In this document: in pieces, positions 43,532 to 59,836 of the stretch
How the letters are laid out: each line of letters opens with the position of its first letter
Numbering within the stretch: position 1 is the stretch's first letter
Assembly (NCBI RefSeq): GCF_002007215.1
Contig: NZ_MUHX01000009.1
Coordinates: 1-64,000, forward strand
Source of the DNA: Pyramidobacter sp. C12-8
GTDB taxonomy: Bacteria; Synergistota; Synergistia; Synergistales; Dethiosulfovibrionaceae
Direction: 5' to 3'
Length of the DNA stretch: 64,000 nucleotides
Notes under the pieces: generated by a model
What the model was told of the DNA's origin: nothing
The model's input: the letters and a program-made list of their open reading frames with translations, nothing else
The model's database searches: none
Translations under genes and position numbers: made by a program

Positions 43532-44533
43532 ATGTTCACGCACAAGCAGAGAATCGAAAACGCCCTCGCCCTGAAGGAAAACGACCGCACGCCGTACAGT
43601 ATGTGGATGCACTTTCCCAACCGAGACCGCCATCCCCGCCGCCTGGCCGAACTGGCGCTCGCCAATCAGAAGAAGTACGACCTCGACTTCATCAAGTACA
43701 TGCCCTTCGGCCTGTACACCACTATCGACATGGGCGTCGATCTCGACGTGTATCCTGGCTTCGAAAAAGCTCCCACGCTGTACGAGCCTGTCATCAAGGA
43801 CGTGAAGGACTGGGATCGGATCCGCCCCGTCAGCGGCGTCCGCGGCGAGTACGCCGTAGTGCTCGAATCGCAGCGCATTCTCATGGAGATGATGGACGAA
43901 CATGTGCCGTTCCTGCAGACGCTCTTCAGCCCCGCCACCACGCTGGCCAAGATGTGCTCGCCCGCCGCGCTGGTCAAGCACATGCGCGAGGATCCCGCCC
44001 GAGTCCACCGCGTGCTGGAGATGGTCACCGACACCACCATCCAGTTTGCCCGAGCTTCCGCGGCACTCGGCGCCGACGGCTTCTTCTACGCCACTCAGCT
44101 TTCCGGCCGCAAGACGATGGAGACGGCGGAGCATGAGGAGTTCGTCATGAAGTACGACCTCGAAGTGCTGAACGCCGTCAAAGATCTCACGTGGTTCAAC
44201 GTGCTGCACATGCACGGCGCCGCAGTGCGCATCGACGAAGTGCAGCATTATCCCGTGCAGGGGCTGAGTTGGCACGACCGCGACGACGGCCCTTCCATGG
44301 AGGAAGTGCGCACGTACAGTTCCAAGGCGTTCGTCGGCGGTCTGAGCTGGGGCGAGAACTGGCTGACCAAGACGGAAGAACAGGTCTCCGCCGAAGTCCG
44401 CGAGATGTGTGGCCACAAGGGAGTCATCCTTGGCCCCGGCTGCGTCATCGAGCCCCACACGCCTGAAAAGTTCCTCGAACTGGTCCATCGGACGATTCTC
44501 GAGTGCGCCGGCAAAGGCCGTTGTTGTAAATAA
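43532..44533 (+). CDS. UroD/MtaA-family protein
   Basis: The 333-residue product belongs to the uroporphyrinogen decarboxylase-like superfamily (MFTHKQRIENALALKENDRTPYSMW, PGCVIEPHTPEKF). In MtaA/MtbA relatives this fold carries methyl transfer to or from corrinoid. Here the usual HxCG zinc motif is not seen (LHMHGAAVRI instead), so the activity is unclear. It lacks a nearby corrinoid protein or haem genes. AGGAGG at 43519-43524 precedes ATG 43532. It is followed by the desulfidase after 36 bases. Confidence 0.8.
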   Translation: MFTHKQRIENALALKENDRTPYSMWMHFPNRDRHPRRLAELALANQKKYDLDFIKYMPFGLYTTIDMGVDLDVYPGFEKAPTLYEPVIKDVKDWDRIRPVSGVRGEYAVVLESQRILMEMMDEHVPFLQTLFSPATTLAKMCSPAALVKHMREDPARVHRVLEMVTDTTIQFARASAALGADGFFYATQLSGRKTMETAEHEEFVMKYDLEVLNAVKDLTWFNVLHMHGAAVRIDEVQHYPVQGLSWHDRDDGPSMEEVRTYSSKAFVGGLSWGENWLTKTEEQVSAEVREMCGHKGVILGPGCVIEPHTPEKFLELVHRTILECAGKGRCCK

Positions 44534-44569
44534 AATCTGCGAACATCAGAGAGAGGTTTAAGATCATCC

Positions 44570-45865
44570 ATGTTTACCATTACCGAATTTCTTCATCAGG
44601 AAGTCAAGCCGGCCCTTGGCTGCACGGAGCCGGGGGCTGTGGCTCTGGCCGTCGCCAAAGCGTGCGAGCAGCTGAGCGGTCTGGCCGAGCGCGTGGAAGT
44701 GGTCGTCAGCGACAACATCTTCAAGAACGGCATCGCCGTCGGCGTGCCCGGCACCAACGGCGCCCGCGGCAACGAGATCGCCGCGGCGCTGGCCGTGTTC
44801 TGCGGCCACAGCGCTTACAGCCTCGAAGTGCTCAAGGACGCTACCCCCGAAGATCTGTCCCACGCCAAGGAGTTCATTGCCGCAGGCCGTCTGAAGCTGA
44901 CAGCCAACGGCAAGGGTGGCGTCTACGTGGAAGCTGCGGCATATCGCGGCGACGAAACCGGCGTCGCCGTGATCGAGCAGACGCACGGCAACATCACGCT
45001 GGTGAAGAAAAACGGCGAAGTCGTCTTTCAGGCCGTGCCGCACTGCGATGGCGCCGTATCGGCCGCTCCCGCGAAAACGCTCTCCGTTCCCGACCAGGTG
45101 AAAGAGATGGATTTCGAGGAACTCGTCGCGCTCGCCGGCCGGCTCTCTCCCGAAGACATCGACTACGTGTGGCAGGGCATCGACATGAACATGAGGATCT
45201 CCGATTACGGCTTCGAGAACGACGTCGGCCTTGGACTGGGGCGGACCGTCAGAGCCGCGGCCGGAGCGAACTACGAAAACGATCTGGCCGCCCAGGTGAA
45301 AGCCGTTTCCGCGGCGGCCTCCGACGCGCGCATGGCCGGCGTAGCGCTGCCTGTGATGAGCAGCGCCGGCAGCGGCAATCACGGTATCACCGCCATCCTG
45401 CCCGTCTACGTCGTCGGCAAAGCCAAGAATAAGACCCGCGAACAGATCGCCCGCGCCGTGGCGTACAGCCATCTGGCGACGAGTTTTGTCAAGAGCCGCA
45501 TGGGCCGTCTCAGCCCCGTGTGCGGCTGCGCCGTGGCGGCCGGAGCCGGAGCGGCCGCGGGCATCGTCAACGTCATGGGCGGCACGGACGGCCAGGCCAA
45601 GAAAGCCATGGAACTCGTGCTCGGCAACATCACCGGCATGCTCTGCGACGGCGCCAAGGAATCCTGCGCGCTCAAAGTGGGCACCGGCGCGACCGAAGCG
45701 TTTTACGCCGCGCAGATCGCCCTGGCTGGCGGCGGCATGGCCGTGTCGCAGGGCGTCGTCGACGTGAACAGTTTCACCCGTACCGCCGAGAACGCGGCCA
45801 GACTGAATCGCGAAGGCATGAAGGACGTCGATCACACCATCATCGACATCATCACGCACCGCTGA
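44570..45865 (+). CDS. L-cysteine desulfidase (CyuA/UPF0597) family protein
   Basis: The 431-residue product starts MFTITEFLHQEVKPALGCTEPGAVALA, the signature of the cysteine desulfidase family that uses an Fe-S cluster to turn cysteine into pyruvate, sulfide and ammonia. Cluster-type cysteines are C18, the pair in SPVCGCAVAAG, and those in MLCDGAKESCALK. It may give sulfide and pyruvate in amino-acid fermentation. GAGAGAGG precedes ATG 44570. Confidence 0.85.
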   Translation: MFTITEFLHQEVKPALGCTEPGAVALAVAKACEQLSGLAERVEVVVSDNIFKNGIAVGVPGTNGARGNEIAAALAVFCGHSAYSLEVLKDATPEDLSHAKEFIAAGRLKLTANGKGGVYVEAAAYRGDETGVAVIEQTHGNITLVKKNGEVVFQAVPHCDGAVSAAPAKTLSVPDQVKEMDFEELVALAGRLSPEDIDYVWQGIDMNMRISDYGFENDVGLGLGRTVRAAAGANYENDLAAQVKAVSAAASDARMAGVALPVMSSAGSGNHGITAILPVYVVGKAKNKTREQIARAVAYSHLATSFVKSRMGRLSPVCGCAVAAGAGAAAGIVNVMGGTDGQAKKAMELVLGNITGMLCDGAKESCALKVGTGATEAFYAAQIALAGGGMAVSQGVVDVNSFTRTAENAARLNREGMKDVDHTIIDIITHR

Positions 45866-45880
45866 AAAAAATCGCAAGAG

Positions 45881-45929
45881 AAAAGCTGACCTCCGAACCG
45901 TAAACGACGGCGCGGAGGTCAGCTTTTTT
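45881..45929 (+). terminator. Terminator between the desulfidase and the M32 gene
   Basis: AAAAGCTGACCTCCG (45881-45895) pairs with CGGAGGTCAGCTTTT (45913-45927) and the T run continues to 45929. It lies between convergent genes and probably works in both directions, since the left arm begins with AAAA. Confidence 0.85.
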
Positions 45930-45938
45930 GCGGCAGGG

Positions 45939-47450
45939 CTAAATTTTGAATCCGTACAGCCGCGAGTATTTTTCATTTAGGTAATCCAGATAGGGGCTGG
46001 CGTCGAGTTCGCTTCCGGCGACGCGCTTCATCAGTTCGGGCGAGGTGAAGCAGCAGCCCCAGCGGAACAGATGTTCCTGCATCCAGCCGTCGATGGCGCC
46101 GATGTCGCCTGCGGCAAGGTGCGCAAAGGCGTCGGGACGTTTTTTCAGCAGCGCGGCGCGCCACTGGCCGCCGTAGATGTTGCCGAGCGCGTAGCTCTGG
46201 AAGTAGCCGATGTAGTCGCCGGCCCAGTGGATATCCTGCAGGATCCCTTCCAGGTCGTCGGTGGGGCGGACGCCGAGCGTGCGTTCGTAAGCGTCATTCC
46301 ATGCGTCGGCAAGGTCTTCCGCTGTGAGAAGCCCGGCGAAATAATCGCGTTCCAGCTCGAAGCGGACGATGATGTGCAGGCTGTACGTCACTTCGTCGGC
46401 GGCCGTACGCTTGAGGTTGGGCGAAACGGCGTTGACGCCGGCGTAGAAATCTTCCGGCGGCAGATCTTTGAATTCGGGCAGCGCGGCTTGCAGCGCTCCG
46501 TAATGGCACTGCCAGAATTCGCGGCTGCGGCCGACGATGTTTTCGTAAAAACGCGCTGCGCCTTCCTGCAGCGCGCCGGTCGTGCCGCCCCACAGTCCCT
46601 CGCCGCGCAGCGCGGGATCGGTGCGGCTGGAGTACATGGCGTGCCCGCCCTCGTGCAGGAGTGTGAAGATCATGTCGATCCGCCCGAGGCGGGCCGTGGA
46701 AATGCGCGAATCGAGAGGCCCCGGGCGGTTGGTCATGCCGTGGACGGCGCGGTCGTTGAAGGTTACCGTCTCCGAATCGAGCCCGTTCCAGCAGGCCAGG
46801 CGGCGTCCCAGCGCCATCAGCGCGCCGGCGTCGTACTCGCGGTTTATGAAATCGCGGGAAATCGTTTTGCCGGAAGAGCGGATACGTTCGATCAAGGCGA
46901 TGATACCGGCGCGTAGCCGCGCGAACTCGCGGCTGATATCGCCGGTTTTGACGTCTTCGTCGGTCAGCCCCACGAGCGTGTCGAAAACGGGCTGGCCGGG
47001 GGCGAGAGCTCGGGCGATCTCGGCTTTCAGCGCGAAGGCCCGTTTCAGCCACGGCATGAAGATCCGATAATCGCGCTTTTCGCGGGCTTCTTTCCAGGCG
47101 TTCAGCACGTCGGCCTTGATCAGCGTGAACTCGCGTAGCGTGTCGGAGGGAATGAGAACGGAGTTGCGGTAGTCGCGCCGGAAGATGCGCGCCTGGGCGC
47201 GGTCGGCGTCGCTTTCGATCTCCGCAAGGGGCACTCCGTTAAGGTACGCGGCGGCTCGGCGGGCGTCGTCGGAGGCGTAAAGCTTCGCTTTCTGCGCCCC
47301 GAAAAAGGCGCTCATCTCCTGACGGTATGCGCCGCCGCGGCGGGGCAGCGAAGTCCATTGGTCGTACTGAAGCAGCCCGTTCAGCGAACGGTAATAAACG
47401 GCCGTTTGATTGACCGCACGGGCGGTCCGCAATGCTTCGTCAAAGTCCAT
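45939..47450 (-). CDS. M32 carboxypeptidase (Taq type)
   Basis: The 503-residue product is of the usual M32 length and has the zinc motif HEGGH (about residues 266-270) in TLLHEGGHAMYSSRTDP. M32 enzymes remove basic, aromatic or branched C-terminal residues in the cytoplasm. ATG at 47450 follows CGGAGA (minus). It is 13 bases after the dehydrogenase gene at 47464-48330 in the same transcript. Confidence 0.9.
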   Translation of the reverse strand: MDFDEALRTARAVNQTAVYYRSLNGLLQYDQWTSLPRRGGAYRQEMSAFFGAQKAKLYASDDARRAAAYLNGVPLAEIESDADRAQARIFRRDYRNSVLIPSDTLREFTLIKADVLNAWKEAREKRDYRIFMPWLKRAFALKAEIARALAPGQPVFDTLVGLTDEDVKTGDISREFARLRAGIIALIERIRSSGKTISRDFINREYDAGALMALGRRLACWNGLDSETVTFNDRAVHGMTNRPGPLDSRISTARLGRIDMIFTLLHEGGHAMYSSRTDPALRGEGLWGGTTGALQEGAARFYENIVGRSREFWQCHYGALQAALPEFKDLPPEDFYAGVNAVSPNLKRTAADEVTYSLHIIVRFELERDYFAGLLTAEDLADAWNDAYERTLGVRPTDDLEGILQDIHWAGDYIGYFQSYALGNIYGGQWRAALLKKRPDAFAHLAAGDIGAIDGWMQEHLFRWGCCFTSPELMKRVAGSELDASPYLDYLNEKYSRLYGFKI

Positions 47451-47463
47451 GCTCGGTCTCCGC

Positions 47464-48330
47464 TCACTTTTCGTAATGATGGATCAGCGCCTGCGTGCCG
47501 AGGTCGCCCATGCCGCGCGCTGTCACGTCGAGACAATTGCGCAGCGCGGCCTCGAGCACGTCGAGAGAGAGTCCAGCGCTTCGGGCTTCCTCAGCGGCGA
47601 TGCGCAGATCTTTGGCCAGATATTTGACGAAAAAAGTGGGCGAGTCGTCGCCGGAAATGATCTTCGGTCCCAGCGTGTCCAGTTGCCGGCTGGCGGCGGA
47701 ACCGCTGCTGACGAGCCCGAAAAGGCGGTTCAGGTCAAGGCCGGCCCGGCGGGCGTACGCGAACGACTCGCAAATGCCCGAAAGCGTTCCGGCCACGAGG
47801 ATCTGGTTGGCCGCCTTGGCGTGCTGGCCTTTCCCTGCCGGCCCCATAAAGTCCGCTTTTGCCCCCATAGCCGAAAAAAGAGGCCGGCATCTTTCGAAAT
47901 CCGCCGCCGCACCGCCGACGAGGAACGACAGCGTCCCTTCCGCCGCTCCCTTCGCGCCGCCCGTGACGGGCGCGTCGAGCGCGCGCAGCCCGCGCTTTTG
48001 CCCCTCGGCGAAGATCCGTTCCGCCAGCGCCGGGCTGGAGGTGGTCATGTCGATCAGGAACGTCCCCGGACGCGCCGAATCCATCAATCCTCCTCGGCCG
48101 AAATAGACCTGTTCCACGTCGGCGGGCGCGCCGAGCATGGTGAGCGCGACCGCGGCGGAGCGGACGCAGTCGGCGATGGAATTGTGAAGGCGCGCGCCGG
48201 CGTTGATCAGATCCCGCGCCTTTTCCGGATGCCGGGCGTAAACGTGCAGTTCGTATCCGGCGTTCATGAGATTGCGGCCCATGGGCTTTCCCATGATGCC
48301 CAGACCGATGAAGGCGAGCGCTTGGTTCAT
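47464..48330 (-). CDS. Beta-hydroxyacid dehydrogenase (3-hydroxyisobutyrate dehydrogenase family)
   Basis: The 288-residue product has the NAD(P)-binding GLGIMGKPMGRNL near the start, the DAPVTGGAKGA substrate loop and the KAANQILVAG catalytic-lysine motif, which define the beta-hydroxyacid dehydrogenase family. Tartronate semialdehyde reductase and 3-hydroxyisobutyrate dehydrogenase are alternatives. ATG at 48330 (minus) follows AAAGGAG. It is the first gene of a minus-strand pair with the M32 peptidase. Confidence 0.88.
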   Translation of the reverse strand: MNQALAFIGLGIMGKPMGRNLMNAGYELHVYARHPEKARDLINAGARLHNSIADCVRSAAVALTMLGAPADVEQVYFGRGGLMDSARPGTFLIDMTTSSPALAERIFAEGQKRGLRALDAPVTGGAKGAAEGTLSFLVGGAAADFERCRPLFSAMGAKADFMGPAGKGQHAKAANQILVAGTLSGICESFAYARRAGLDLNRLFGLVSSGSAASRQLDTLGPKIISGDDSPTFFVKYLAKDLRIAAEEARSAGLSLDVLEAALRNCLDVTARGMGDLGTQALIHHYEK

Positions 48331-48668
48331 TTTGTTTTCTCCTTTTCCCGACGGCGAGATTTTTCCCGCGTGGTCCTCGTGAGATATGGTTCTGTCCGCA
48401 CCGCGAACGCGGCTTACGCCGGATCTTCATGCCAAAACGGCTCCCGCCGCTATTATGCCATAAGATCTCGAGCGAAGCCATTGCGGTTCGAGAAAGAGAA
48501 CGCTTTCTCCGGACAAATCTCAGTTTATCAAAACTTCAGTTTTGTGAAAGTCATTAAATAATATAGAAGTTCATCTTGACAGCGTCCCAAGGCAATGATA
48601 ATATCGCTTCAGTTTTCATCGAGTGATGAATAATAGTTTATTCGTGCATCGTATTGAGGTGAAAAAAT
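48331..48668. other. Divergent intergenic region before argH
   Basis: The 338-base gap separates the minus-strand dehydrogenase from argH. It has no gene. The argH promoter lies at 48576-48604. I see no clear minus-strand promoter. Confidence 0.6.
48576..48604 (+). promoter_or_regulatory. Promoter of the argH-deacetylase operon
   Basis: TTGACA (48576-48581), an exact 17-base spacer and TAATAT (48599-48604) match the sigma-70 consensus. The start of argH is about 65 bases downstream, with GAGGTG as ribosome-binding site. This is one of the strongest promoter matches in the window. Confidence 0.8.
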
Positions 48669-49991
48669 ATGAATTTATGGGGAGGGCGCTTTCAAGGCGC
48701 CGAAGACGAGCTGATGAAGGCCTTCGACAATTCGCTGCCGCTGGGCAAGCGTTACTGGAAGGAAGACATCGAAGGCAGCCTCGCGCACGCGGCTATGCTC
48801 GGCGCCTGCGGGATCATCACGAAGGAAGACGCCGAGGCGATCCGGAAGGGGCTGCAGGGGATCATGGGCGACATCGAAAGCGGCGCGCTCGTGATCGGCG
48901 ACGAGGGGTACGAGGACATTCACAGCTTTGTGGAGCTGAATTTGACGAAGCGCATCGGCGAGGCGGGCAAAAAGCTCCACACGGCGCGCAGCCGCAACGA
49001 CCAGGTGGCCGTGGATTCGAAGCTCTTCGCCAAAAACGCCGCCGCGCGGGTGGAGGAGAAGCTGGACAAACTGTGCGGCGCGCTCAAAGCTACGGCCGAC
49101 GCCAATCCCTGGCTGATGCCGGGCTACACGCACCTGCAGCGCGCGCAGGCCGTCACCTTCAAACACACGCTGGCGGCCTTCGAGCGCATGTTCCAGCGCG
49201 ACCGCAAGCGCCTGCGCAACGCCGTGGAGATCATGATGGAAGACTGTCCGCTGGGCTGCGGCGCGCTGGCGGGGACCACGCATCCCATCGACCGCGGCAT
49301 GACCGCCGCGGCGCTGGGGTTCCAAAAGCCCTGCGACAATTTCCTCGACGGCGTCAGCGACCGCGATTATTTCTGCGAGCTGCTCGGCGTCTTCGCGATC
49401 GTCCTCATGCACCTCAGCCGCCTGAGCGAATCGATCATCCTCTGGTGTTCGCAGGAGTTCCGCTTCGTCACGCTCAGCGACGCCTATTCCACGGGCAGCA
49501 GCATCATGCCCCAGAAGAAGAACCCCGACAGCGCCGAACTGATCCGCGGCAGCGCGGGGCTGGTCTACGGCTCGCTGATGGCGATGCTGACGGAGATGAA
49601 GGGGCTGCCGCTGGCCTACAACAAGGACATGCAGCTCGACAAGCGGGCCTTTCTGCCGGCGCTGGACGACACGCTGATGTGCCTCGAGATCATGAGCGGC
49701 CTCGTCGCCACGATGACCGTCCACCCCGAGGCCATGAAAAAAGCGCTTCACGACGGTTTTCTCAACGCCACCGAGCTGGCCGACTACCTCGTCAAACGCG
49801 GCGTGCCCTTCCGCGACGCGCATGCCGTCGTCGGCGCGGCGGTGCTGCTGTGCGAGAAAAAAGGCTGCGCGATCGAGGACCTGCCGCTGGAGGAGCTGCA
49901 AAAACTCAGCCCCGCGATCGGCGCGGACGTGTACGGCCAGCTGGATTACGAAAACACGATCAAACTGGGCGTCAAGAGTCAAATGCTATGA
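48669..49991 (+). CDS. argH: Argininosuccinate lyase-family protein
   Basis: The 440-residue product matches ArgH: MNLWGGRF start, HTARSRNDQVA, the GYTHLQRAQ segment and the signature SSIMPQKKNPDS. ArgH cleaves argininosuccinate to arginine and fumarate; other members of the superfamily split aspartase-type C-N bonds. No other arginine biosynthetic gene is near, and it leads an operon with a racemase, an amino-acid importer and deacetylases, so a catabolic C-N lyase is a real alternative. The stop overlaps the next gene by four bases. Confidence 0.88.
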   Translation: MNLWGGRFQGAEDELMKAFDNSLPLGKRYWKEDIEGSLAHAAMLGACGIITKEDAEAIRKGLQGIMGDIESGALVIGDEGYEDIHSFVELNLTKRIGEAGKKLHTARSRNDQVAVDSKLFAKNAAARVEEKLDKLCGALKATADANPWLMPGYTHLQRAQAVTFKHTLAAFERMFQRDRKRLRNAVEIMMEDCPLGCGALAGTTHPIDRGMTAAALGFQKPCDNFLDGVSDRDYFCELLGVFAIVLMHLSRLSESIILWCSQEFRFVTLSDAYSTGSSIMPQKKNPDSAELIRGSAGLVYGSLMAMLTEMKGLPLAYNKDMQLDKRAFLPALDDTLMCLEIMSGLVATMTVHPEAMKKALHDGFLNATELADYLVKRGVPFRDAHAVVGAAVLLCEKKGCAIEDLPLEELQKLSPAIGADVYGQLDYENTIKLGVKSQML

Positions 49992-50722
49992 AGATCTGCG
50001 TCGTCAATCCCGACAGCGGCCTCGACGCGGCGGGTCTGAAACTGAGGGTCGAGCTGCTGCGCGCCTTTGCGCGCCCCGATACGGAAATCGTCATGGTCTG
50101 CCCGCGCAAGAACAATCTCTGCGTCGATTCGTGCCTCGACGCGGCGCTGGACGCGCCGGAGATCGCGGAGATGGCGCTGCGGGCGCAAGCCGGCGGCGCC
50201 GACGCGGTGTGCCTGTACTGTTTCAGCGATCCCGGCTTCGACGCCTGCCGGGAACTGCTCCGTGTCCCCGTCGTCGTCGGCGCGCAGGCCACGGTGCTGC
50301 TGGCCAGCCAGCTGGCCCTCAGCTTTTCGGTGCTGACCACGTCGGCGCGGCGGATCCCGCAGAAAAAAGCCTTTCTCCGCGCGCTGGGCGCCGATCCCGT
50401 CAGGATCGCGAGCGTGCGCGGCGTCGAACTGCCGCCGGGCGCCTCGCGGGAACGGAGCGAAATCATTGAAATTCTCGAGGCGGGCGGACGGCTGTGCGTC
50501 GAAGAAGACGGCGCCGGCGCCGTGATCCTCGGCTGTCTCAGCTTCGCCGGCATGGGCGCGGAGCTGACGGAGCGGCTCGGCGTGCCGGTGATCGACCCCG
50601 CCGCCGCGCTGATCGCCACGGCCGAATCTTTGGTCGTTCAGGGACTCAGCCACAGCAAGCGGAGCTGGCCCGAGCCGCCGGCGGCGCGACGCTTCTGGGG
50701 CGCGGGGACCATCGAAAACTGA
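49988..50722 (+). CDS. Asp/Glu/hydantoin racemase-family protein
   Basis: The 244-residue product starts MKICVVNPDSG and has cysteine-containing motifs VCLYCFSDPG and AVILGCLSFAGMG, which sit where the two catalytic cysteines of aspartate, glutamate or hydantoin racemases lie. It is of the hydantoin-racemase size. It overlaps argH by four bases (ATGA), so the two enzymes are probably made together. Confidence 0.85.
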   Translation: MKICVVNPDSGLDAAGLKLRVELLRAFARPDTEIVMVCPRKNNLCVDSCLDAALDAPEIAEMALRAQAGGADAVCLYCFSDPGFDACRELLRVPVVVGAQATVLLASQLALSFSVLTTSARRIPQKKAFLRALGADPVRIASVRGVELPPGASRERSEIIEILEAGGRLCVEEDGAGAVILGCLSFAGMGAELTERLGVPVIDPAAALIATAESLVVQGLSHSKRSWPEPPAARRFWGAGTIEN

Positions 50723-50771
50723 ACGTGGCGCTGCGCCATGCGACATTTATATTTATGAGGAGGAACACACG

Positions 50772-52280
50772 ATGAATTTCAACGTCAAAAAAATTGCCGC
50801 CGGCGTTGCGGCGGTCATGCTGTGCGCCGTATCGGCCTGTGCGGCCAAGCCGCTCGAAGGGCAAAAGCTGAAGATGGCCGTCAGCCCCACGTTCCCGCCT
50901 TTCGAGTTCGAGCAGCTCGACGAGCAGGGCAATGCCCGCATCGTCGGCTACGACATCGACATGGTGGACGCGATCGCCGCGGAGCTCGGCTTCACCTACG
51001 AGCTGGTGCACACCAACTTCAAGGGATTGATGGGGGAGCTGGCCAGTCACCGCGTCGACTTCGTCGTCTCCGGCATGTCGCCCACCGAGGAGCGCAAAAA
51101 GACCGTCGATTTCTCCGTGCCCTACTATTATTGCCAGACTTCAATCATCCAGCACAAGGGAACCAACATCAAGACCGTGGCGGACCTGAAGGGCAAAAAG
51201 ATCGCCGCCTCCTTCGGCACTCAGTACGCCGACTTCGCCGAAGCGGCGGGCGCCGTCGTCGCCGCGATGGACAGCAGCACATACAGCATGCAGGAACTCC
51301 TGGCCGGCCGCGCCGACGGCGTGGTACAGGACGCCGCCTCCGCTTCCATCCGCGTCAAGCAGCATCCCGAGCTCGAGTACTTCGTGCTGCCGCAGGACGA
51401 ACTCGACAAGGTGCAGGGCGGCAACGTCTCCGACTGTTTCGCCGCCGTGTTCCCCAAGGGCTCGGAACTGGAACCGCTGTTCACCGAACAGATCGAAAAG
51501 ATGCAGGCCGACGGCACCATGAAGGCCATTTACGAGAAGTGGATCGGCCCCTGGCCCTACGACGCCAAGCCGCTCCGGGGCAAGCACTACAAGCTGGCGA
51601 TCAACGCCACCTTCGCGCCGTTCGAGTTCGCCCAGGTGAACGACACGGGCGAGAGCGTCATCACCGGTTTCGACATCGACGTGCTCGACGCGATCGCCGC
51701 GGCGCTCGGCTTCACCTACGAGATCAAGGACATGAACTTCTCCGGCCTGATCGGCGAGCTGCACAGCGGCCGCGCCGACTTCGTCATCTCCGGCCTGTCG
51801 GACACGGAGGAGCGCCGCAAGAGCGTCGATTTCTCCGTTCCCTATTATTTCTGCAAGACCGCCATCATCTCGCCGGCCGCCGCGCCGGTGAAGACCATGG
51901 CGGAGATGAAGGGCAAAAAGATCGCCACCGTGTTCGGCACCGAGTACGCCAAGGTGGTCGAGGCCTCCGGTTCCGTTCCCACGCTGCTCGACAACAGCAC
52001 CATGGTCACTCAGGAGCTGCTGAACGGCCGCGTCGACGGCGCCGTCATGGACGCCTCGCAGGCCAAGACCAAGTGCGAGCAGAACGAGGGTTACGTGTAC
52101 CACGTCATCCCCAACGAAGAGCTCGAAAGCGCCCATTACGTTTCCGGTGCGTATTCCATCGCCTTCCAGAAAGGTTCCGGGCTGATCCCCCTGTTCAACG
52201 AACAGATCGGGAAGATGTTCGCCAGCGGCCGGATGAACGAGCTGATCGTCAAATGGATGGGCGAGGAGTTCGTCAAGTAA
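50772..52280 (+). CDS. Amino-acid ABC binding protein with two tandem domains
   Basis: The 502-residue product has a signal peptide (MNFNVKKIAAGVAAVMLCAVSACAA) and then two family 3 solute-binding domains in tandem, about residues 28-265 and 270-502. The halves are clearly related: TFPPFEFEQLDEQG against TFAPFEFAQVNDTG, DFVVSGMSPTEERKKTVDFS against DFVISGLSDTEERRKSVDFS. Most such proteins have one domain. GAGGAGGA precedes ATG 50772. It should feed the permease and ATPase downstream. Confidence 0.9.
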   Translation: MNFNVKKIAAGVAAVMLCAVSACAAKPLEGQKLKMAVSPTFPPFEFEQLDEQGNARIVGYDIDMVDAIAAELGFTYELVHTNFKGLMGELASHRVDFVVSGMSPTEERKKTVDFSVPYYYCQTSIIQHKGTNIKTVADLKGKKIAASFGTQYADFAEAAGAVVAAMDSSTYSMQELLAGRADGVVQDAASASIRVKQHPELEYFVLPQDELDKVQGGNVSDCFAAVFPKGSELEPLFTEQIEKMQADGTMKAIYEKWIGPWPYDAKPLRGKHYKLAINATFAPFEFAQVNDTGESVITGFDIDVLDAIAAALGFTYEIKDMNFSGLIGELHSGRADFVISGLSDTEERRKSVDFSVPYYFCKTAIISPAAAPVKTMAEMKGKKIATVFGTEYAKVVEASGSVPTLLDNSTMVTQELLNGRVDGAVMDASQAKTKCEQNEGYVYHVIPNEELESAHYVSGAYSIAFQKGSGLIPLFNEQIGKMFASGRMNELIVKWMGEEFVK

Positions 52281-52340
52281 CTTTTTTCGAAAAAAGAGCG
52301 GCCGAAGGGCTCGCCGCCGCGCGCGGAGATCCCTTCGGCC
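52281..52340 (+). promoter_or_regulatory. Hairpins between binding protein and permease
   Basis: CTTTTTTCGAAAAAAG (52281-52296) is a perfect 16-base palindrome immediately after the stop codon. GGCCGAAGGG (52300-52309) and CCCTTCGGCC (52331-52340) form a ten-base-pair stem. Neither has a following U tract, so the structure probably stabilises the binding-protein mRNA or slows read-through. Confidence 0.55.
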
Positions 52341-52404
52341 CTGTGCGACGGGCGCGCCGCGCGTCGCCGCGGCGGCTTTGCGAAACGCCGCAGGAAGGAA
52401 GAAC

Positions 52405-53178
52405 ATGAGAAAATCGCTTTTCGGCCGCAAAAAAGCGCCGCCGCTGCTGGCCCTCGCGGCCGTGCTGGCTCTGGCGGGGCTGGCCTGGGCCGCGCCGGCC
52501 CCGGCGCGGCGGTTTGCGCTGCATTTCGAACGCATCTGGCCCTATTACAAAGTCTTTTACCGCGGCATGATCAATTCGCTCGAGGTGACCTTCATGTCCG
52601 TGATCATGGGCTCGGTCTGCGGCACCGTGCTGGCGCTGCTCAAAGTCTCGCGCCTCGGGCCGCTGTCGTGGTTCGCCACGGCCTACACCTCGGTGTTCCG
52701 CGGCACGCCGCTGATGGTGCAGTTGTTCCTCGTTTATTTCGCCACGCCGCAGCTCTTCGATTATCAGATCCCGGCCTTCAACGCCGTGGTGCTGACCTTC
52801 GGGCTCAACTCCGCCGCCTACGTGTCCGAGATCCTGCGCGGCGGCATCCAGTCCATCGACGTCGGCCAGCGCGAGGCCGCCATGGCCCTGGGCGTGCCCT
52901 ACCGCGCCATGATGTTCGACATCGTCATCCCTCAGGCGCTGCGCACCGTGCTGCCGTCGCTGGTCAACGAGCTCATCGCCCTGCTCAAGGACACCTCCAT
53001 CGTCGCCACCATCGGCATGCTCGACATGATGCGCGCCGCCCAGACCGCCATGAACTCCACCTATCTGGCCTTCGAGCCGTTCATCGTCGTCGCCGGCATG
53101 TACTACGTGCTCGTGATGATCTTCACGGCCGTCGCCTCGCGCCTGGAGAGGAGGCTGCACAAAAGTGATCGAAATTAA
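52405..53178 (+). CDS. Amino-acid ABC permease (HisM/GlnP type)
   Basis: The 257-residue product has an N-terminal signal-like helix and about five further helices, with the family motif [18 protein letters not shown] and the coupling region [26 protein letters not shown]. One permease suffices as a homodimer. ATG 52405 follows GCAGGAAGGAAG. It overlaps the ATPase gene by 14 bases. Confidence 0.9.
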
Positions 53179-53887
53179 GGATCTGAAAAAACAATTCGGC
53201 TCCCTCGAGGTGCTTCGGGGCGTCAACCTGAAGATCGACGACGGCGAAGTGGTGTCCGTCATCGGCCCCTCCGGCTCGGGCAAGTCGACGCTGCTGCGCT
53301 GCATCAACCTGCTCGAAACGCCCACGTCGGGACAGGTCGTGATCGACGGGGTGGACATCACCCAAAGAGGCGTGGACATTCAGAAAGTGCGCGAGAACGT
53401 GGGCATGGTGTTTCAGCACTTCAACCTGTTCCAGAACAAGAACGTGCTCCAGAACATGATCTACGCGCCCATGAAAGTGCGCGGCCTTCCCGAGGCGCAG
53501 GCCGTCGAAAAGGCCATGCGGCTGCTCGAACGCGTCGGTCTGGCCGACAAGGCCCGCGCCTATCCTTCCATGCTCTCCGGCGGCCAGCAGCAGCGCGTCG
53601 CCATCGCCCGCGCCCTGGCCATGGAGCCGCGCACGCTGCTTTTCGACGAGCCCTCCTCGGCGCTCGATCCGGAGATGGTCAAGGAAGTGCTCGACGTGAT
53701 TCGCAGCCTGGTTTCCACGGGCATCACCATGGCGATCGTCACCCACGAGATGGGCTTCGCCCGCGAGGCTTCCGACCGCGTCTGCTTCGTCGACGAGGGC
53801 GTGATCGCCGAAGACGCCGCGCCGTCTGAGTTCTTCTCGTCGCCGAAGTCGGCGCGCGCTCGGCAGTTTTTGGAAAAAGTGCTTTAG
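53165..53887 (+). CDS. Amino-acid ABC ATP-binding protein (GlnQ type)
   Basis: The 240-residue product has Walker [10 protein letters not shown], the Q-loop region [18 protein letters not shown], the signature [15 protein letters not shown] and Walker [12 protein letters not shown]. The start is GTG 53165, inside the permease 3' end after GAGAGGAGG. It completes a polar amino-acid importer. Confidence 0.93.
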
Positions 53888-53911
53888 ACGCAGAGAAACG
53901 GAGACTGAAAA

Positions 53912-54781
53912 ATGGAAGACCGGCTGCATTGGAAAAACGGCGCCCGCTGCGCCGTGATGCTGACGTTCGATCTCGACGGGGACACCACGTGGAAGAACGG
54001 CAACGCCCACTACGAAGGCGGCGACAAGTTCCTGAAAGCCCGCTCGGTAGGGCTTTACGGCCCCAACCGCGGCGCTCACTCCATCCTCGACCTGCTGAAG
54101 AAATACGGCGTCCCCGGCACCTTCTTCGTGCCCGGCAAGGTCGCCGAGGACAACCCCGACCTGATCCGCCGCATCGACGCCGAAGGGCACGAGATCGGCC
54201 AGCACGGCTACACGCACGAAATGTTCTTCAACTACGGCCGCGAGCGGCAGATCGAGATCGTCGAAAAGTGCCAGAACATCTTCTGCGACCTGATCGGCAA
54301 GCCCGCCCGCGGCTTTCGCACCCCGTCCGGCGACTGGTCGCTGGACACGCCGCGCCTGCTGTACGAGCGCGGCGTCGACTACAGCAGCTCGATGCGCGGC
54401 AACGACCGCCCCTATCACACCGCGATCGACGGCGAAAAGACCGACTTCATCGAGATCCCTACGCGCTGGGAACTGGACGATTACGTGGCCACCGCCTACA
54501 ATTATTTCCCCGCCGAACCCGACGGGCAGGACCGCATCTCCGGCTACGACCTGGTCTACGACAATTTCTCGCGCGAGTTCGACGGCTATTACGAATACGG
54601 CCTGTGCTTCGTCAGCATGATCCATCCGCAGGTCACCGGCACTCCCGGCCGCCTGCGCATCCTCGAAAAGCTGATCCGGCATATCAAGGAGCGAGGCGAC
54701 GTCTGGTTCGCGCGCGGCGGCGAAGTGGCGCGGTGGTACCGCGAGCATTACGACCGCGAGGAGGTCCTGAAAAATGCCTGA
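53912..54781 (+). CDS. Polysaccharide deacetylase-family protein, PgdA/PuuE type
   Basis: The 289-residue product has a NodB-like barrel close to HpPgdA and PuuE: TFDLDGD with D20 and D22, then HGYTH with H98 and H102, the expected metal site, and a later RGFRTPSGDW. This family includes peptidoglycan deacetylases, allantoinases and cyclic imidases. No signal peptide is seen, so a cytoplasmic substrate is likely. It lies in an amino-acid import operon, favouring a small cyclic amide. Confidence 0.82.
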   Translation: MEDRLHWKNGARCAVMLTFDLDGDTTWKNGNAHYEGGDKFLKARSVGLYGPNRGAHSILDLLKKYGVPGTFFVPGKVAEDNPDLIRRIDAEGHEIGQHGYTHEMFFNYGRERQIEIVEKCQNIFCDLIGKPARGFRTPSGDWSLDTPRLLYERGVDYSSSMRGNDRPYHTAIDGEKTDFIEIPTRWELDDYVATAYNYFPAEPDGQDRISGYDLVYDNFSREFDGYYEYGLCFVSMIHPQVTGTPGRLRILEKLIRHIKERGDVWFARGGEVARWYREHYDREEVLKNA

Positions 54782-55610
54782 AATCGAGTGGAAGGACGGC
54801 GCCCGCTGCGCCGCCATGATCACCGTCAACCTCGACGCCGAAAACTTCTGGCTGGCCGTCGACCCCGACGTCTCGAAACGCCCGAAGACTCTGTCCATGG
54901 GGCAGTACGGCATGGACCGCGGCCTGCCGCGCCTGCTGGAGCTTCTTGACGATTTGGATATCAAGGCCACGTTTTTCGTGCCCGGTTCGACCGCCGCGGC
55001 CTACGCCGAAAAAGTGAAAGACGTCGCCGCCCGCGGCCACGAGATCGCCCTGCGCGGCTACGAACTGCTCAACTGGGGCCTGCTGCCCGCCGAACAGGCC
55101 GCGGCCGACATGGAAAAAGGCGCCGCTGTCCTCAAAAACGTCGTCGGCGCGCAACCCAGAGGCTACCGCGCTCCCATCGCCGAGTTCACCCTCGACACCC
55201 TGCGCGCCGCCCATGCCAACGGCGCCGTGTATTCCAGCAGCCTCAGCAGCGACGACCGCCCCTTCTGGTTCGACCTGGGAAACGGCGAAAAACTGCTGGA
55301 GATCCCCGTTCACTGGGCGCTTTACGACCTGCCGTACTTCGCCTTCAACTACCACCCGCCCATGCCGAAGGGACAGGGGCGGATCGCCAACTCCGCTCAG
55401 GTCTTCAATAACTTCCGCGAGGAGTTCCTCGGCTGCGCCGAGCGCGGCCTCTGTTACGTGCTCCAGCTCGACCCGCAGACCGCCTGCACTCCCGGCCGCA
55501 TGCCGCTGCTGCGCGGACTGCTGACCGAGATCAAGGAGAGCGGCGCGGCCTGGCTCGCCACCGGCGGCAAGATGTACGATTACTGGTCCGCCGTTTATCC
55601 CGCGAAGTAG
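54774..55610 (+). CDS. Degenerate deacetylase-family paralog
   Basis: The 278-residue product is a clear paralog of the previous gene (KDGARCAAMITVNLDAENFW, FFVPGSTAAAYAEK, PRGYRAPIAEFTLDT). The metal site is changed: the first catalytic aspartate is N19, and the two histidines are R94 and L98, while D21 is retained. It may be an inactive partner or act with another metal-free chemistry. The start overlaps the preceding gene by eight bases, so the two proteins are probably made in equal amounts. Confidence 0.8.
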   Translation: MPEIEWKDGARCAAMITVNLDAENFWLAVDPDVSKRPKTLSMGQYGMDRGLPRLLELLDDLDIKATFFVPGSTAAAYAEKVKDVAARGHEIALRGYELLNWGLLPAEQAAADMEKGAAVLKNVVGAQPRGYRAPIAEFTLDTLRAAHANGAVYSSSLSSDDRPFWFDLGNGEKLLEIPVHWALYDLPYFAFNYHPPMPKGQGRIANSAQVFNNFREEFLGCAERGLCYVLQLDPQTACTPGRMPLLRGLLTEIKESGAAWLATGGKMYDYWSAVYPAK

Positions 55611-55720: not shown

Positions 55721-55750
55721 TTGTCAAAAAACGCCCGCCTGTGTTATAAT
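55721..55750 (+). promoter_or_regulatory. Promoter of tRNA-Ser
   Basis: TTGTCA (55721-55726), an 18-base spacer and TATAAT (55745-55750) form a good sigma-70 promoter. The tRNA begins 13 bases after the -10 box. Confidence 0.7.
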
Positions 55751-55763
55751 GCCCTTTGTCCGC

Positions 55764-55851
55764 GGAGGGGTGTCCGAGTGGTCGATGGTGCTTGCTTGGA
55801 AGGCATGTGTACCTTAGGGTACCGGAGGTTCGAATCCTCTCCCCTCCGCCA
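55764..55851 (+). tRNA. tRNA-Ser(GGA)
   Basis: The acceptor GGAGGGG (55764-55770) pairs with CCCCTCC (55841-55847), followed by G and an encoded CCA ending at 55851. The anticodon loop TTGGAAG reads GGA, so it decodes UCC and UCU. The variable arm GTACC-TTAG-GGTAC is long, as in class II serine tRNAs, and the T loop is TTCGAAT. One anticodon-stem pair (T-T) appears mismatched. Confidence 0.95.
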
Positions 55852-56819: not shown

Positions 56820-57278
56820 ATGGGTTCGAATACGAAAGATTACTTGACGCGGATTGCCATGCAGGAAAAACAATTCGATGCTCTGTATCGGGAAACAAGC
56901 GCGAAATTTGATCTGCCGGATTGTGCGATGTGGGTGTTGTATTTTCTCGTTTCTTCCGATGGGCCGATAACACAGCAGGATCTGATCGAGAAGATGATGT
57001 TTCCCAAGCAGACCATCAATTCTGCTGTGATGAAGCTTTCCAAAGAGGGGCTTGTCCAACTTCAAATCGTCCCCGGCACCCGTAATCGGAAGACGATCTT
57101 TTTGACGGACACCGGAGCGAAGCTGGCACAAGCGACCGTAGAGCGGATGCGGCATGCGGAACTCCGGGCCGTTGAGGCCATGGGAGCCGAGCGCATGGAA
57201 CAGTTTGTCTCGCTCCACAACAGTTTTTATTCTCACTTGCAACGAGCGTTTCAAGACGAAGGTTTGACGGATGCCTGA
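56820..57278 (+). CDS. MarR-family transcriptional regulator
   Basis: The 152-residue product has the winged helix of MarR proteins (ITQQDLIEKMMFPKQTINSA, VMKLSKEGLVQLQIVPGTRN) and the helical dimerisation ends. MarR proteins respond to small aromatic compounds and usually repress themselves and linked efflux or resistance genes. A strong palindromic operator overlaps its promoter. The UvrA-like ABC gene lies about 290 bases on, separated by a decayed gene. Confidence 0.9.
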   Translation: MGSNTKDYLTRIAMQEKQFDALYRETSAKFDLPDCAMWVLYFLVSSDGPITQQDLIEKMMFPKQTINSAVMKLSKEGLVQLQIVPGTRNRKTIFLTDTGAKLAQATVERMRHAELRAVEAMGAERMEQFVSLHNSFYSHLQRAFQDEGLTDA

Positions 57279-57551
57279 CTTGAGATCATGGAATCTTTGG
57301 CGCGGCTGCCAAAAATACAGCGAGGACTGGGAAAACCGTTATATGCATTATCCGGATAAGGTCAGAGGCGTCCCGGAGCGTGCGGCTGTCATTCAAGGGA
57401 TAATCCGCCCAAGAGGAACTGGCGGGGGCAGTATAAGATCCCATCCGGCTCTTGCCTGCGTGTCAATATGACTTCTGGTGCATTTCTTGAAGAGGCGGAC
57501 GAGTGGCGCGTCGAAATGTGGAACGTGATGGGAACGGGAAAGCGTTTATGA
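57271..57551 (+). pseudogene. Decayed DUF5131 (phage Gp37/Gp68-like) gene
   Basis: One frame reads SWNLWRGCQKYSEDWENRYM, close to the N-terminus of DUF5131 proteins (W.PWHGC.K.SEGC.NCYM), but the second cysteine pair is lost. A second frame from 57432 reads YKIPSGSCLRVNMTSGAFLE, matching the next conserved block. The two are out of frame and no C-terminal domain follows. The gene is a fragment squeezed between MarR and the UvrA-like gene. Confidence 0.65.
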
Positions 57552-57571
57552 GCGACGAAGGAGATCGTGCG

Positions 57572-59836
57572 ATGAACGACAATATTGAAATCCGCGGCGC
57601 GTCCGAGAACAACTTGAAGCACATCGACGTGACCATACCGAAGGGGAAGCTGGTCGTCTTTGCCGGCGTCTCCGGCTCGGGCAAGAGTTCGCTGGCTTTT
57701 GATACGGTGGCTGTGGAATCCGAACGCGAATGGCAGCAGAGCTATCCGCTGTTTCTGCGCAACAAGATGCCGCACTATGACCGCCCAAAGGTGGACGAGA
57801 TCCGCAATCTGACGCCCGCCATCGTAGTGGATCAGCGCGCCATCGGCGCGAACACCCGTTCCACGGTCGGCACGGCGGTGGACGTCGCGCCGCTTTTGCG
57901 TCTGCTGTTTTCCCGCGTGGGCGAGCCGAGTGCCGGCGGCAGTATGGCGTACTCCTTCAATCATCCCGCCGGGATGTGCCCGGACTGCACCGGCGTCGGA
58001 GAACGGTTGGAGCTGATCGAGGAATCCATGTTCGACCCGGATAAGACTCTTGCGGAAGGAGCCATTCTGTTCAGCCAGTTTTCCGCCGGATGGCAGACGC
58101 ACCTGTATCAGAACAATCCTCTGCTCGATCCCGATAAAAAGCTCCGGGATTTTACATCCGAGGAATGGGACACGCTGAAATACGGATCGAAAGAACCGGT
58201 CAAAGTGGGAATCAAGTCCAACAATACCGGACGTGTGGATATGGTGGAATATGAGGGCGTTTTCCCCCGTTTTGAGCGTGTCTACATGAAGCGGGACATC
58301 ACCAAGCTGAAAAAAGGCTTGCAGGACGAGATCATGTCTCATGTGAGGCGCGGGGCATGTCGCACCTGCGGGGGGACGGGACTGAATCCGAAGGCTCTGG
58401 CCTCAAGGATCAACGGCAAAAACATCGTGGAGTGCATGGACATGACCGCCGCCGATCTGCTGCCGTTCCTCGAAACGATCGGCGACCCGCGCGGCGGCTC
58501 GCTTGCCAAGCGGATCGCCGAATATCTGGAACGTATGATCGGCGTCGGTATCGGCTATTTGTCCCTTTCGCGCAAGACCGAAACTCTCTCCGGCGGCGAG
58601 GCCCAGCGGTTAAAAATGGTTCGCAATCTCGGCGGATATCTCAACAATATCACTTACATTTTCGACGAACCCACGGCCGGCCTGCATCCGGCGGATGCGG
58701 AGCGGATCGGCAGGATGCTCTGCGACCTGCGGGACAAGCACAACAACGTGCTTGTGGTGGAACACAGCCGTCAAATGCTTGCGCTTGCGGACCACATCAT
58801 CGAAATGGGGCCGGGGGCCGGAATCGGAGGCGGCAGTCTCGTCTTTTCGGGCAGCCTTGAAGAACTGCAAAAAGCGGGGACGCTCACGGCGCAGGCGATC
58901 CGTCAGAAGGTCGCAGTCAACAGAGAGCCGCTGCCGTGGACGGAAGGCTACGAGATCAGAGACGCCCATTGCCACAATTTGAAGCACGTGAACGTGACCG
59001 TTCCGAAGGGCGTTCTCACCGCCGTCACCGGCGTGGCGGGAAGCGGCAAAAGCTCGCTGATGCGCCGTGAGTTCCCTAAAGCATACCCGGATGCCGTCAT
59101 CATCGACCAAAAGCCCATCGGCACATCCATCCGCTCGACGCCCGCCACTTATACCGGCGTGATGGACGAGATCAGAAAGGTCTTCGCCAAGGAGAACGGC
59201 GTCGGCGCGGGCTGGTTCTCCTTCAATTCCGAGGGCGGCTGCCCTATCTGCAAGGGCACCGGGCAGATCACCTACGATATGGCCTTCGCCGAGCCGTTGG
59301 CCGTCCCCTGCGAGGAATGCGGCGGACATCGCTACAATCCCACGGCGCTGTCTTACTGTTACAAAGGAATGAACATCGAAGAAGCGATGAGGCTGACTAT
59401 CGGGCAGGCGTATGATTTCTTCGACAATGCCAAGATCCGCAAGCTCCTGCGGAGCATGATCGACGTGGGGCTGGATTATCTCACGCTGGGACAGCCCACG
59501 AGCACGCTGTCCGGCGGAGAAGTGCAGCGGGTCAAGCTGGCCAGCGAGCTGCACAGGCAGGGACAGATCTATGTGCTGGACGAACCAAGCAGCGGCTTAC
59601 ACGCTAGCGACATTGAAAAGCTGCTGGCGCTGCTCCGCGGGCTGGTGGGGAGCGGGAACACCGTGGTCATGGTCGAGCATCGCATGGAACTGATCGCACA
59701 GGCGGACTGGGTCATCGACATGGGGCCGGACGGCGGCTCCGGCGGGGGAACAGTGGTATTCGAGGGGGTCCCCGAACAGCTGTTGAAATGTTCGGGCTCC
59801 AAAACCGCAAAGTATATGCTTGAAGCGCTCCGATAG
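57572..59836 (+). CDS. UvrA-like ABC ATPase, short form
   Basis: The 754-residue product is homologous to UvrA with two ABC domains: FAGVSGSGKSSLAFDT near residue 34, signatures LSGGEAQRLKMV and LSGGEVQRVKLA, and zinc motifs CPDCTGVG/CRTCGGTG and CPICKGTG/CEECGG. UvrA is about 940 residues; the missing part is in the DNA-damage-sensing insertion. Such short paralogs, often near MarR genes, are linked to resistance to DNA-binding drugs. ATG 57572 follows AAGGAG; an upstream frame start at 57503 overlaps the pseudogene. Confidence 0.88.
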   Translation: MNDNIEIRGASENNLKHIDVTIPKGKLVVFAGVSGSGKSSLAFDTVAVESEREWQQSYPLFLRNKMPHYDRPKVDEIRNLTPAIVVDQRAIGANTRSTVGTAVDVAPLLRLLFSRVGEPSAGGSMAYSFNHPAGMCPDCTGVGERLELIEESMFDPDKTLAEGAILFSQFSAGWQTHLYQNNPLLDPDKKLRDFTSEEWDTLKYGSKEPVKVGIKSNNTGRVDMVEYEGVFPRFERVYMKRDITKLKKGLQDEIMSHVRRGACRTCGGTGLNPKALASRINGKNIVECMDMTAADLLPFLETIGDPRGGSLAKRIAEYLERMIGVGIGYLSLSRKTETLSGGEAQRLKMVRNLGGYLNNITYIFDEPTAGLHPADAERIGRMLCDLRDKHNNVLVVEHSRQMLALADHIIEMGPGAGIGGGSLVFSGSLEELQKAGTLTAQAIRQKVAVNREPLPWTEGYEIRDAHCHNLKHVNVTVPKGVLTAVTGVAGSGKSSLMRREFPKAYPDAVIIDQKPIGTSIRSTPATYTGVMDEIRKVFAKENGVGAGWFSFNSEGGCPICKGTGQITYDMAFAEPLAVPCEECGGHRYNPTALSYCYKGMNIEEAMRLTIGQAYDFFDNAKIRKLLRSMIDVGLDYLTLGQPTSTLSGGEVQRVKLASELHRQGQIYVLDEPSSGLHASDIEKLLALLRGLVGSGNTVVMVEHRMELIAQADWVIDMGPDGGSGGGTVVFEGVPEQLLKCSGSKTAKYMLEALR

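Follow-up and report, generated by a model that had tools for sequence, protein, structure and literature searches.

The window analysed here, a 64,000-nucleotide stretch at the start of contig NZ_MUHX01000009.1 of Pyramidobacter sp. C12-8, carries a seven-gene operon (argH and genes for a hydantoin-type racemase, a tandem-domain binding protein, an ABC permease and ATPase, and two paralogous NodB-fold hydrolases, DacA and DacB) that probably serves the import and breakdown of a ring-modified, guanidino-substituted arginine. The best explanation overall, which we hold at a little under an even chance from sequence and gene neighbourhoods, is a catabolic operon for arginine with a ring-closed succinyl group on a guanidino nitrogen. 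Cyclised argininosuccinate ("argininosuccinic anhydride", a 2-amino-imidazol-4-one) is named as the substrate somewhat more tentatively. The original prediction, made from the letters of the window, had suggested import and breakdown of a modified amino acid, and this idea is supported by linkage across phyla and by arginine- and fumarate-handling neighbours. Its proposal, with PuuE-like deacetylase homologues as cyclic amidohydrolases and a hydantoin-type racemase, agrees with all that was tested; the substrates it suggested, with an N-succinyl, cyclic imide or hydantoin group, are here narrowed to an arginine derivative.

Linkage of ArgH to the DacA/DacB pair

Loci related to the operon were collected from bacterial and archaeal genomes with a DacA alignment and two peptide patterns, without regard to ArgH. 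The best 80 of more than 500 were kept, and the break in identity between close and remote loci may partly reflect this ranking. Genes were called with a codon-usage gene finder script and tblastn, and in the high-GC loci L028, L110, L115 and L118 by tblastn, open reading frame (ORF) lists or retraining; several of the compared loci are metagenome bins or contig ends. The 16 close loci (L105-L120, of which L116 is from genome G021 and L120 from G034) have DacA proteins of 44-66% identity (38-44% by query for L120), and they include the named strains Emergencia timonensis, Bacilliculturomica massiliensis, Gordonibacillus kamchatkensis and Arthrobacter sp. Leaf137, with metagenome bins among the rest.

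DacB adjoins DacA in all 16 close loci. Eleven of the 16, but none of the 64 more distant ones, have ArgH no more than 9 kb from DacA (Fisher p = 4e-10, or 6e-8 once near relatives are merged), and these ArgH-linked loci belong to Bacillota, Actinomycetota and one Variovorax bin. The neighbours, whose linkage in related genomes had been set beforehand as the refuting test, are linked in distant genomes as well. The seven-gene order itself, which was to be checked in other Synergistota, recurs in three further genomes of the genus, with 93-100% identity, and does not extend beyond it. Among 188 Synergistota genomes, the DacA/DacB pair occurs in the window genus and in G021, G022, G034 and G098. 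The wider conserved core consists of an importer, a racemase or epimerase and the DacA/DacB pair, frequently joined by ArgH; related clusters have a single-domain binding protein, or AgcS or DcuC-type carriers instead.

The genes around the pair repeatedly concern arginine and fumarate. Arginase (twice) and the ornithine aminotransferase RocD are found in L113, an agmatinase-type ureohydrolase in L115, fumarase (FumA or FumC) with malic enzyme in L110-L112, and malic enzyme in L106-L108; the products arginine and fumarate would therefore be provided for. The G098 cluster has an arginine-deiminase/DDAH-type (ADI/DDAH-type) hydrolase gene at its head, together with a racemase, ABC importer, DacA, DacB and a regulator, and those of G021 and G022 comprise an AgcS carrier, racemase, DacA, DacB, GntR and an ADI/DDAH-type gene. 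With G034, where such a gene (73% identical) lies outside the cluster, an ADI/DDAH-type hydrolase is present in all of G021, G034 and G098, the Synergistota whose pair has no ArgH link. L115 and L117 lack the hydantoin-type racemase and have an MmgE/PrpD gene after DacB; MmgE/PrpD is the family of iminodisuccinate epimerase (PMC7347537).

In the Gordonibacillus (G196) and Arthrobacter (G199) genomes and two actinobacterial bins (G200, G201), an ArgG-adjacent ArgH is also present, so the DacA-linked copy is additional there; the Variovorax bin (G198) has two ArgH. In the Bacillota genomes G189, G190, G191, G193 and G195, ArgG is present, all ArgH copies are in the DacA region, and argB was not found. 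The linked ArgH thus supplements another copy in some genomes and is the only one in others. The DacA-linked proteins sit in separate branches of the ArgH tree, with at least six changes of label, so the link to DacA was gained or retained more than once.

Relatives of the clusters' ADI/DDAH-type guanidino-hydrolase are strikingly numerous, with 11 matches in Emergencia timonensis (G195, locus L112), 8 in G193 and 3-4 each in G189, G190 and G191, with some copies of the expanded set in tandem. This expansion suggests that E. timonensis and its relatives are specialists on modified arginines. In another genome (G039, locus L101, 8733-12911), an ArgH-like gene near the Bacillota cluster ArgHs shares its strand with an adjoining ADI/DDAH-type gene and a gene for an NhaC-like carrier; no DacA match was found in that genome, and the locus may represent a sister pathway.

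ArgH and the arginine genes of the genome

ArgH scores 513.1 bits against TIGR00838 (curated cut-off 279.5) over its full length and keeps the active-site segments HTARSRNDQ, PGYTHLQRAQ, GSSIMPQKKNPD and PLAYNKDMQLDK in alignment to 1tj7. It matches true argininosuccinate lyases at E 8e-116 and the group of 6g3d, which we take to be EDDS (ethylenediaminedisuccinate) lyase, at E 3e-47. Judged by score, it is a true argininosuccinate lyase. This speaks against a reading in which ArgH acts as a broad C-N lyase on some other amine-succinate adduct (of the iminodisuccinate or EDDS type, or an N-succinyl amino acid) and an epimerase prepares the right isomer. The lyase and epimerase logic of iminodisuccinate breakdown (cited in PMC7347537) and the MmgE/PrpD genes of L115 and L117 would suit such a reading; however, the window operon has no MmgE/PrpD gene and the arginase, RocD and ADI-type neighbours concern arginine, and we regard it as very unlikely.

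The window genome (2.67 Mb, about 99% complete) has no other ArgH. It had been noted that argH appears without any other arginine gene, which holds for the operon and its neighbourhood, where no other arginine biosynthesis genes were found, but not genome-wide: a single argG lies on another contig, and one ornithine carbamoyltransferase (OTC) and a carbamate kinase are encoded elsewhere. N-acetylglutamate kinase was not found among the four amino-acid-kinase proteins of the genome, which read as ProB, aspartokinase, UMP kinase and carbamate kinase, and ADI/DDAH genes are absent. The genes for OTC and carbamate kinase are near neighbours, with no arginine deiminase gene beside them (G000, C104:602-7785), and it is conceivable that this organism converts arginine to citrulline through ArgG and ArgH run in reverse. 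In the tree, the window ArgH falls among the ArgHs of the Bacillota clusters and outside the clade typical of Synergistota, although some branches are long and its exact position is unsure. Another genome of the genus (G120) has both types, a canonical ArgH and, separately, one at 81% identity to that of the window.

These data bear on the most ordinary explanation, that a biosynthetic ArgH is simply co-transcribed with an importer and two unrelated sugar or peptidoglycan deacetylases. A sole ArgH scoring above the equivalog cut-off, in a genome with ArgG and OTC, is what it would predict. Against it stand the cross-phylum linkage of ArgH to DacA and DacB, the extra linked copies in genomes that keep an ArgG-adjacent one, the failure to find N-acetylglutamate kinase in the window genome, and the fold and missing signal peptide of the putative deacetylases described below. 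We consider it quite improbable, and a plain biosynthetic ArgH is weakened by the linkage and extra-copy data. Restoration of arginine synthesis by this ArgH would not refute the catabolic idea, because the sole ArgH of the genome may do both.

DacA and its probable degenerate partner

Both proteins exceed the cut-off of PF01522 (Polysacc_deac_1). The original prediction stressed that the deacetylases have no signal peptide, and indeed neither starts with a hydrophobic stretch when the sequences are read by eye. In the AlphaFold model of DacA (pLDDT 86), the fold appears nearer to PuuE allantoinase and HpPgdA than to carbohydrate esterases: Foldseek gave TM scores of 0.79-0.87 to 3rxz, 3qbu (HpPgdA, 0.84) and 3cl6 (PuuE, 0.79; E 1e-20), against about 0.5-0.6 for most CE4 structures. 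Against the PuuE model TIGR03212, DacA and DacB score 77.8 and 63.1 bits (cut-off 424.6). PuuE has a small cyclic substrate. HpPgdA has no secretion signal and binds metal (PMC3084791), and HxnM, of the same fold group, has been assigned by reverse genetics as a cyclic imide hydrolase in nicotinate breakdown (PMC9304392). Peptidoglycan deacetylation was rejected on the missing signal and the fold nearer PuuE and HpPgdA.

Residues D20, D22, H98, H102, R136 and H238 are kept in all DacA orthologues examined. DacB is 39% identical to DacA; across the pairs its D20 is replaced by N in nearly all cases, H238 by D, E or T in Bacillota and Synergistota, and its two His vary. Since the pair is kept in every close locus while DacB has lost these residues, we read DacB as probably a conserved degenerate, non-catalytic partner of DacA. 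The "deacetylase pair" of the original prediction is therefore better described as one protein with intact residues and a paralogue that is probably not a second active enzyme.

Racemase and importer

The racemase belongs to PF01177 (109 bits), and its nearest solved relatives are the hydantoin/allantoin racemases 3qvj and 5lfd. C78 and C183, corresponding to both catalytic Cys, are kept; the same positions are Cys in 3qvj and Ser in 3qvk. An allantoin pathway was considered and set aside: the racemase and DacA fit in part, the PuuE cut-off is missed and the operon has no other allantoin genes. The families of the racemase and DacA would equally suit a hydantoin or cyclic imide formed from arginine or citrulline by other routes, with ArgH only channelling later intermediates, and clusters without ArgH do exist. 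That reading, however, leaves unexplained why ArgH, and not a carbamoylase, recurs in three phyla, and we judge it quite unlikely.

Binding protein, permease and ATPase all belong to the PAAT family. The two SBP_bac_3 domains of the binding protein are 52% identical to each other, and the Arg (TEER) and Asp ligand positions are kept in both. In LAO-type proteins, such Arg and Asp residues hold the amino-acid backbone through its alpha-carboxylate and alpha-amino groups. In G120 (locus L095, 195-2332), the ArgH at 81% identity is followed directly by a single-domain binding protein, with no racemase between and the contig ending there; this arrangement suggests that the binding domain was duplicated recently and that the operon was assembled step by step.

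Proposed pathway and the main alternative

We propose that the tandem binding protein and the PAAT-type ABC importer would take up the substrate through its free alpha-amino-acid end. The hydantoin-type racemase would then invert the acidic ring carbon, and DacA would open the ring by hydrolysing its amide, as PuuE and cyclic imide hydrolases do on their own rings, and so release L-argininosuccinate. This hydrolase is probably a DacA/DacB heteromer with its active site in DacA. Finally, ArgH would split L-argininosuccinate into arginine and fumarate. We infer the substrate, the order of steps and the heteromer. Argininosuccinic acid is known to form five-membered-ring anhydrides (PMC6918381). 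A 2-amino-imidazolone ring resembles those that enzymes of the DacA group open and that hydantoin racemases invert. ArgH and the neighbouring genes suggest arginine and fumarate as products, so the input of ArgH must be argininosuccinate; its cyclised form is favoured because it is a substrate that uses all parts of the operon.

Several points weigh against this proposal. Five of the 16 close loci (L105, L109, L114, L116 and L120) have no nearby ArgH, which is therefore not obligatory beside DacA and DacB. In the window genome, the sole ArgH together with ArgG may also serve the conversion of citrulline to arginine. The ArgH-like gene beside an ADI/DDAH-type gene in G039, where no DacA match was found, means that ArgH and ADI/DDAH are not strict alternatives. 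In the literature examined, which excludes most subscription journals, we found no account of bacteria growing on argininosuccinate or its anhydride, nor any documentation of a large natural source of cyclised argininosuccinate. No description of the gene set or of bacterial argininosuccinate use was found there either, and the pathway looks to be so far undescribed.

The main rival, which we consider unlikely, has arginine glycation products such as MG-H1 or its glyoxal analogue as substrates. The racemase would invert ring C5, DacA would open the ring to carboxyethyl- or carboxymethyl-arginine, an ADI/DDAH-type hydrolase would free citrulline, and ArgH would be an add-on or altered in specificity. 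MG-H1 has the same 2-amino-imidazolone ring and a C5 stereocentre; the ADI/DDAH-type genes inside the G021, G022 and G098 clusters and the 11 related genes of E. timonensis are also in keeping with this route. However, ArgH chemistry requires a carboxylate in the beta position to the leaving nitrogen, a feature absent from carboxyethyl- and carboxymethyl-arginine; an ADI/DDAH gene, whose product could act on the ring-opened compound, is missing from the window genome, and the fumarase and malic enzyme neighbours point to fumarate. For carboxymethyllysine as a substrate, the literature search yielded nothing on the cluster.

Operon layout and neighbouring genes

All seven ORFs are present on a single strand at the predicted coordinates (Table 1), and the near-consensus promoter claimed upstream of argH was found with an extended -10; five promoter-like sites occur in the region against 1.0 expected. 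The next one after the operon is at 55721, ahead of tRNA-Ser (55764-55851). The predicted overlaps and short gaps hold for most junctions: argH and the racemase gene overlap by 4 nt, permease and ATPase genes by 14 nt and dacA and dacB by 8 nt, with gaps of 49 nt between racemase and binding protein and 24 nt between ATPase and DacA. The exception is the 124-nt gap (52281-52404) separating the binding protein from the permease, where an RNA fold of 52278-52410 gives a strong stem-loop that may serve differential expression; such gaps are frequent where a binding protein is produced in excess over its permease. No riboswitch was detected by Rfam, whose sole match was the tRNA.

Table 1. Coordinates of the operon genes and associated signals in the window
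Feature	Position	Strand	Evidence
Promoter-like TTGACA-17-TAATAT	48576..48604	+	10/12 matches
ArgH, argininosuccinate lyase homologue, 440 aa	48669..49991	+	TIGR00838, 513 bits
Asp/Glu/hydantoin racemase family protein, 244 aa	49988..50722	+	PF01177; C78, C183
Tandem-domain amino-acid-binding protein, 502 aa, two SBP_bac_3 domains	50772..52280	+	PF00497, two stretches
Intercistronic RNA stem-loop, binding protein/permease	52300..52340	+	Fold z -2.7
Polar amino-acid ABC permease, 257 aa	52405..53178	+	PF00528; TIGR01726 over cut-off
Polar amino-acid ABC ATPase, 240 aa	53165..53887	+	PF00005; GlnQ best NCBIfam model, below its cut-off
DacA, NodB-fold hydrolase, PuuE/HpPgdA-like, 289 aa	53912..54781	+	PF01522; catalytic residues intact
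DacB, DacA paralogue, 278 aa, proposed non-catalytic partner	54774..55610	+	D20N, H98R, H102L, H238D

Named by eye, the upstream block (43532-48330) encodes a uroporphyrinogen-decarboxylase-like protein (43532), an L-cysteine desulfidase-like protein (44570) and, on the minus strand, an M32-type carboxypeptidase (45939) and a 3-hydroxyisobutyrate-dehydrogenase-like protein (47464). The downstream block (56820-59836) has a MarR-type regulator (56820) and then a UvrA-like protein of 754 aa (57572), also named by eye; UvrA paralogues of such kind can be tied to drug resistance.

Implications

Taken together, these observations raise the possibility, which we put forward as a tentative generalisation, of a widespread undescribed bacterial pathway that opens arginine-built 2-amino-imidazolone rings, with DacA and DacB as the founding heteromeric ring hydrolase. 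In gut and soil bacteria it would act on cyclised argininosuccinate and possibly on MG-H1-type products, and so supply ArgH, ADI/DDAH-type hydrolases or arginase. If so, it would offer a concrete set of enzymes, open to testing, through which these bacteria process ring-modified arginines such as argininosuccinate anhydrides and perhaps glycation products from the diet, give a function to a gene group annotated "polysaccharide deacetylase", explain stray second argH copies, and flag Emergencia timonensis and relatives as likely modified-arginine specialists. Two predictions follow: that the hydrolase is a heteromer whose one inactive subunit has been retained across phyla, and that ArgH, familiar from biosynthesis and the urea cycle, has a role in catabolism.

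Comparison with known systems

The window ArgH resembles argininosuccinate lyases of the TIGR00838 type in its full-length score and active-site segments. Unlike them, it is not beside argG but sits with an importer and a putative ring hydrolase, and, in contrast to biosynthetic arginine operons, no arginine biosynthesis genes adjoin it. DacA shares its modelled NodB fold and lack of a signal peptide with PuuE allantoinase and the cyclic imide hydrolases (the HxnM and HpPgdA group), a small-substrate group (PMC3084791, PMC9304392), and keeps the metal-ligand residues D22, H98 and H102 of the cyclic imide hydrolase/HpPgdA group. It differs from PuuE in its score far below the cut-off (77.8 against 424.6 bits), in coming with a degenerate partner, and in keeping an Asp/His/His metal site, whereas PuuE is reported not to be metal-dependent (PMC10967932). 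With the CE4 carbohydrate esterases, DacA and DacB share PF01522, but they have no export signal, and the closest structures to DacA are outside CE4. Similarly, the racemase is of the same family as the hydantoin/allantoin racemases 3qvj and 5lfd and by alignment has both catalytic Cys, yet it is only moderately similar and its operon has no allantoin pathway genes.

Iminodisuccinate and EDDS breakdown offers the closest logic, in which epimerisation is followed by elimination of fumarate from an amine-succinate adduct, and two related clusters carry MmgE/PrpD. The window operon differs in its lyase subfamily (ASL-like), in lacking MmgE/PrpD, in its extra ring-hydrolase pair and in its arginine-linked neighbours. 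The importer matches PAAT ABC systems in its SBP_bac_3 protein, permease, ATPase and Arg/Asp ligand positions, and departs from them in that its binding protein is a fused tandem.

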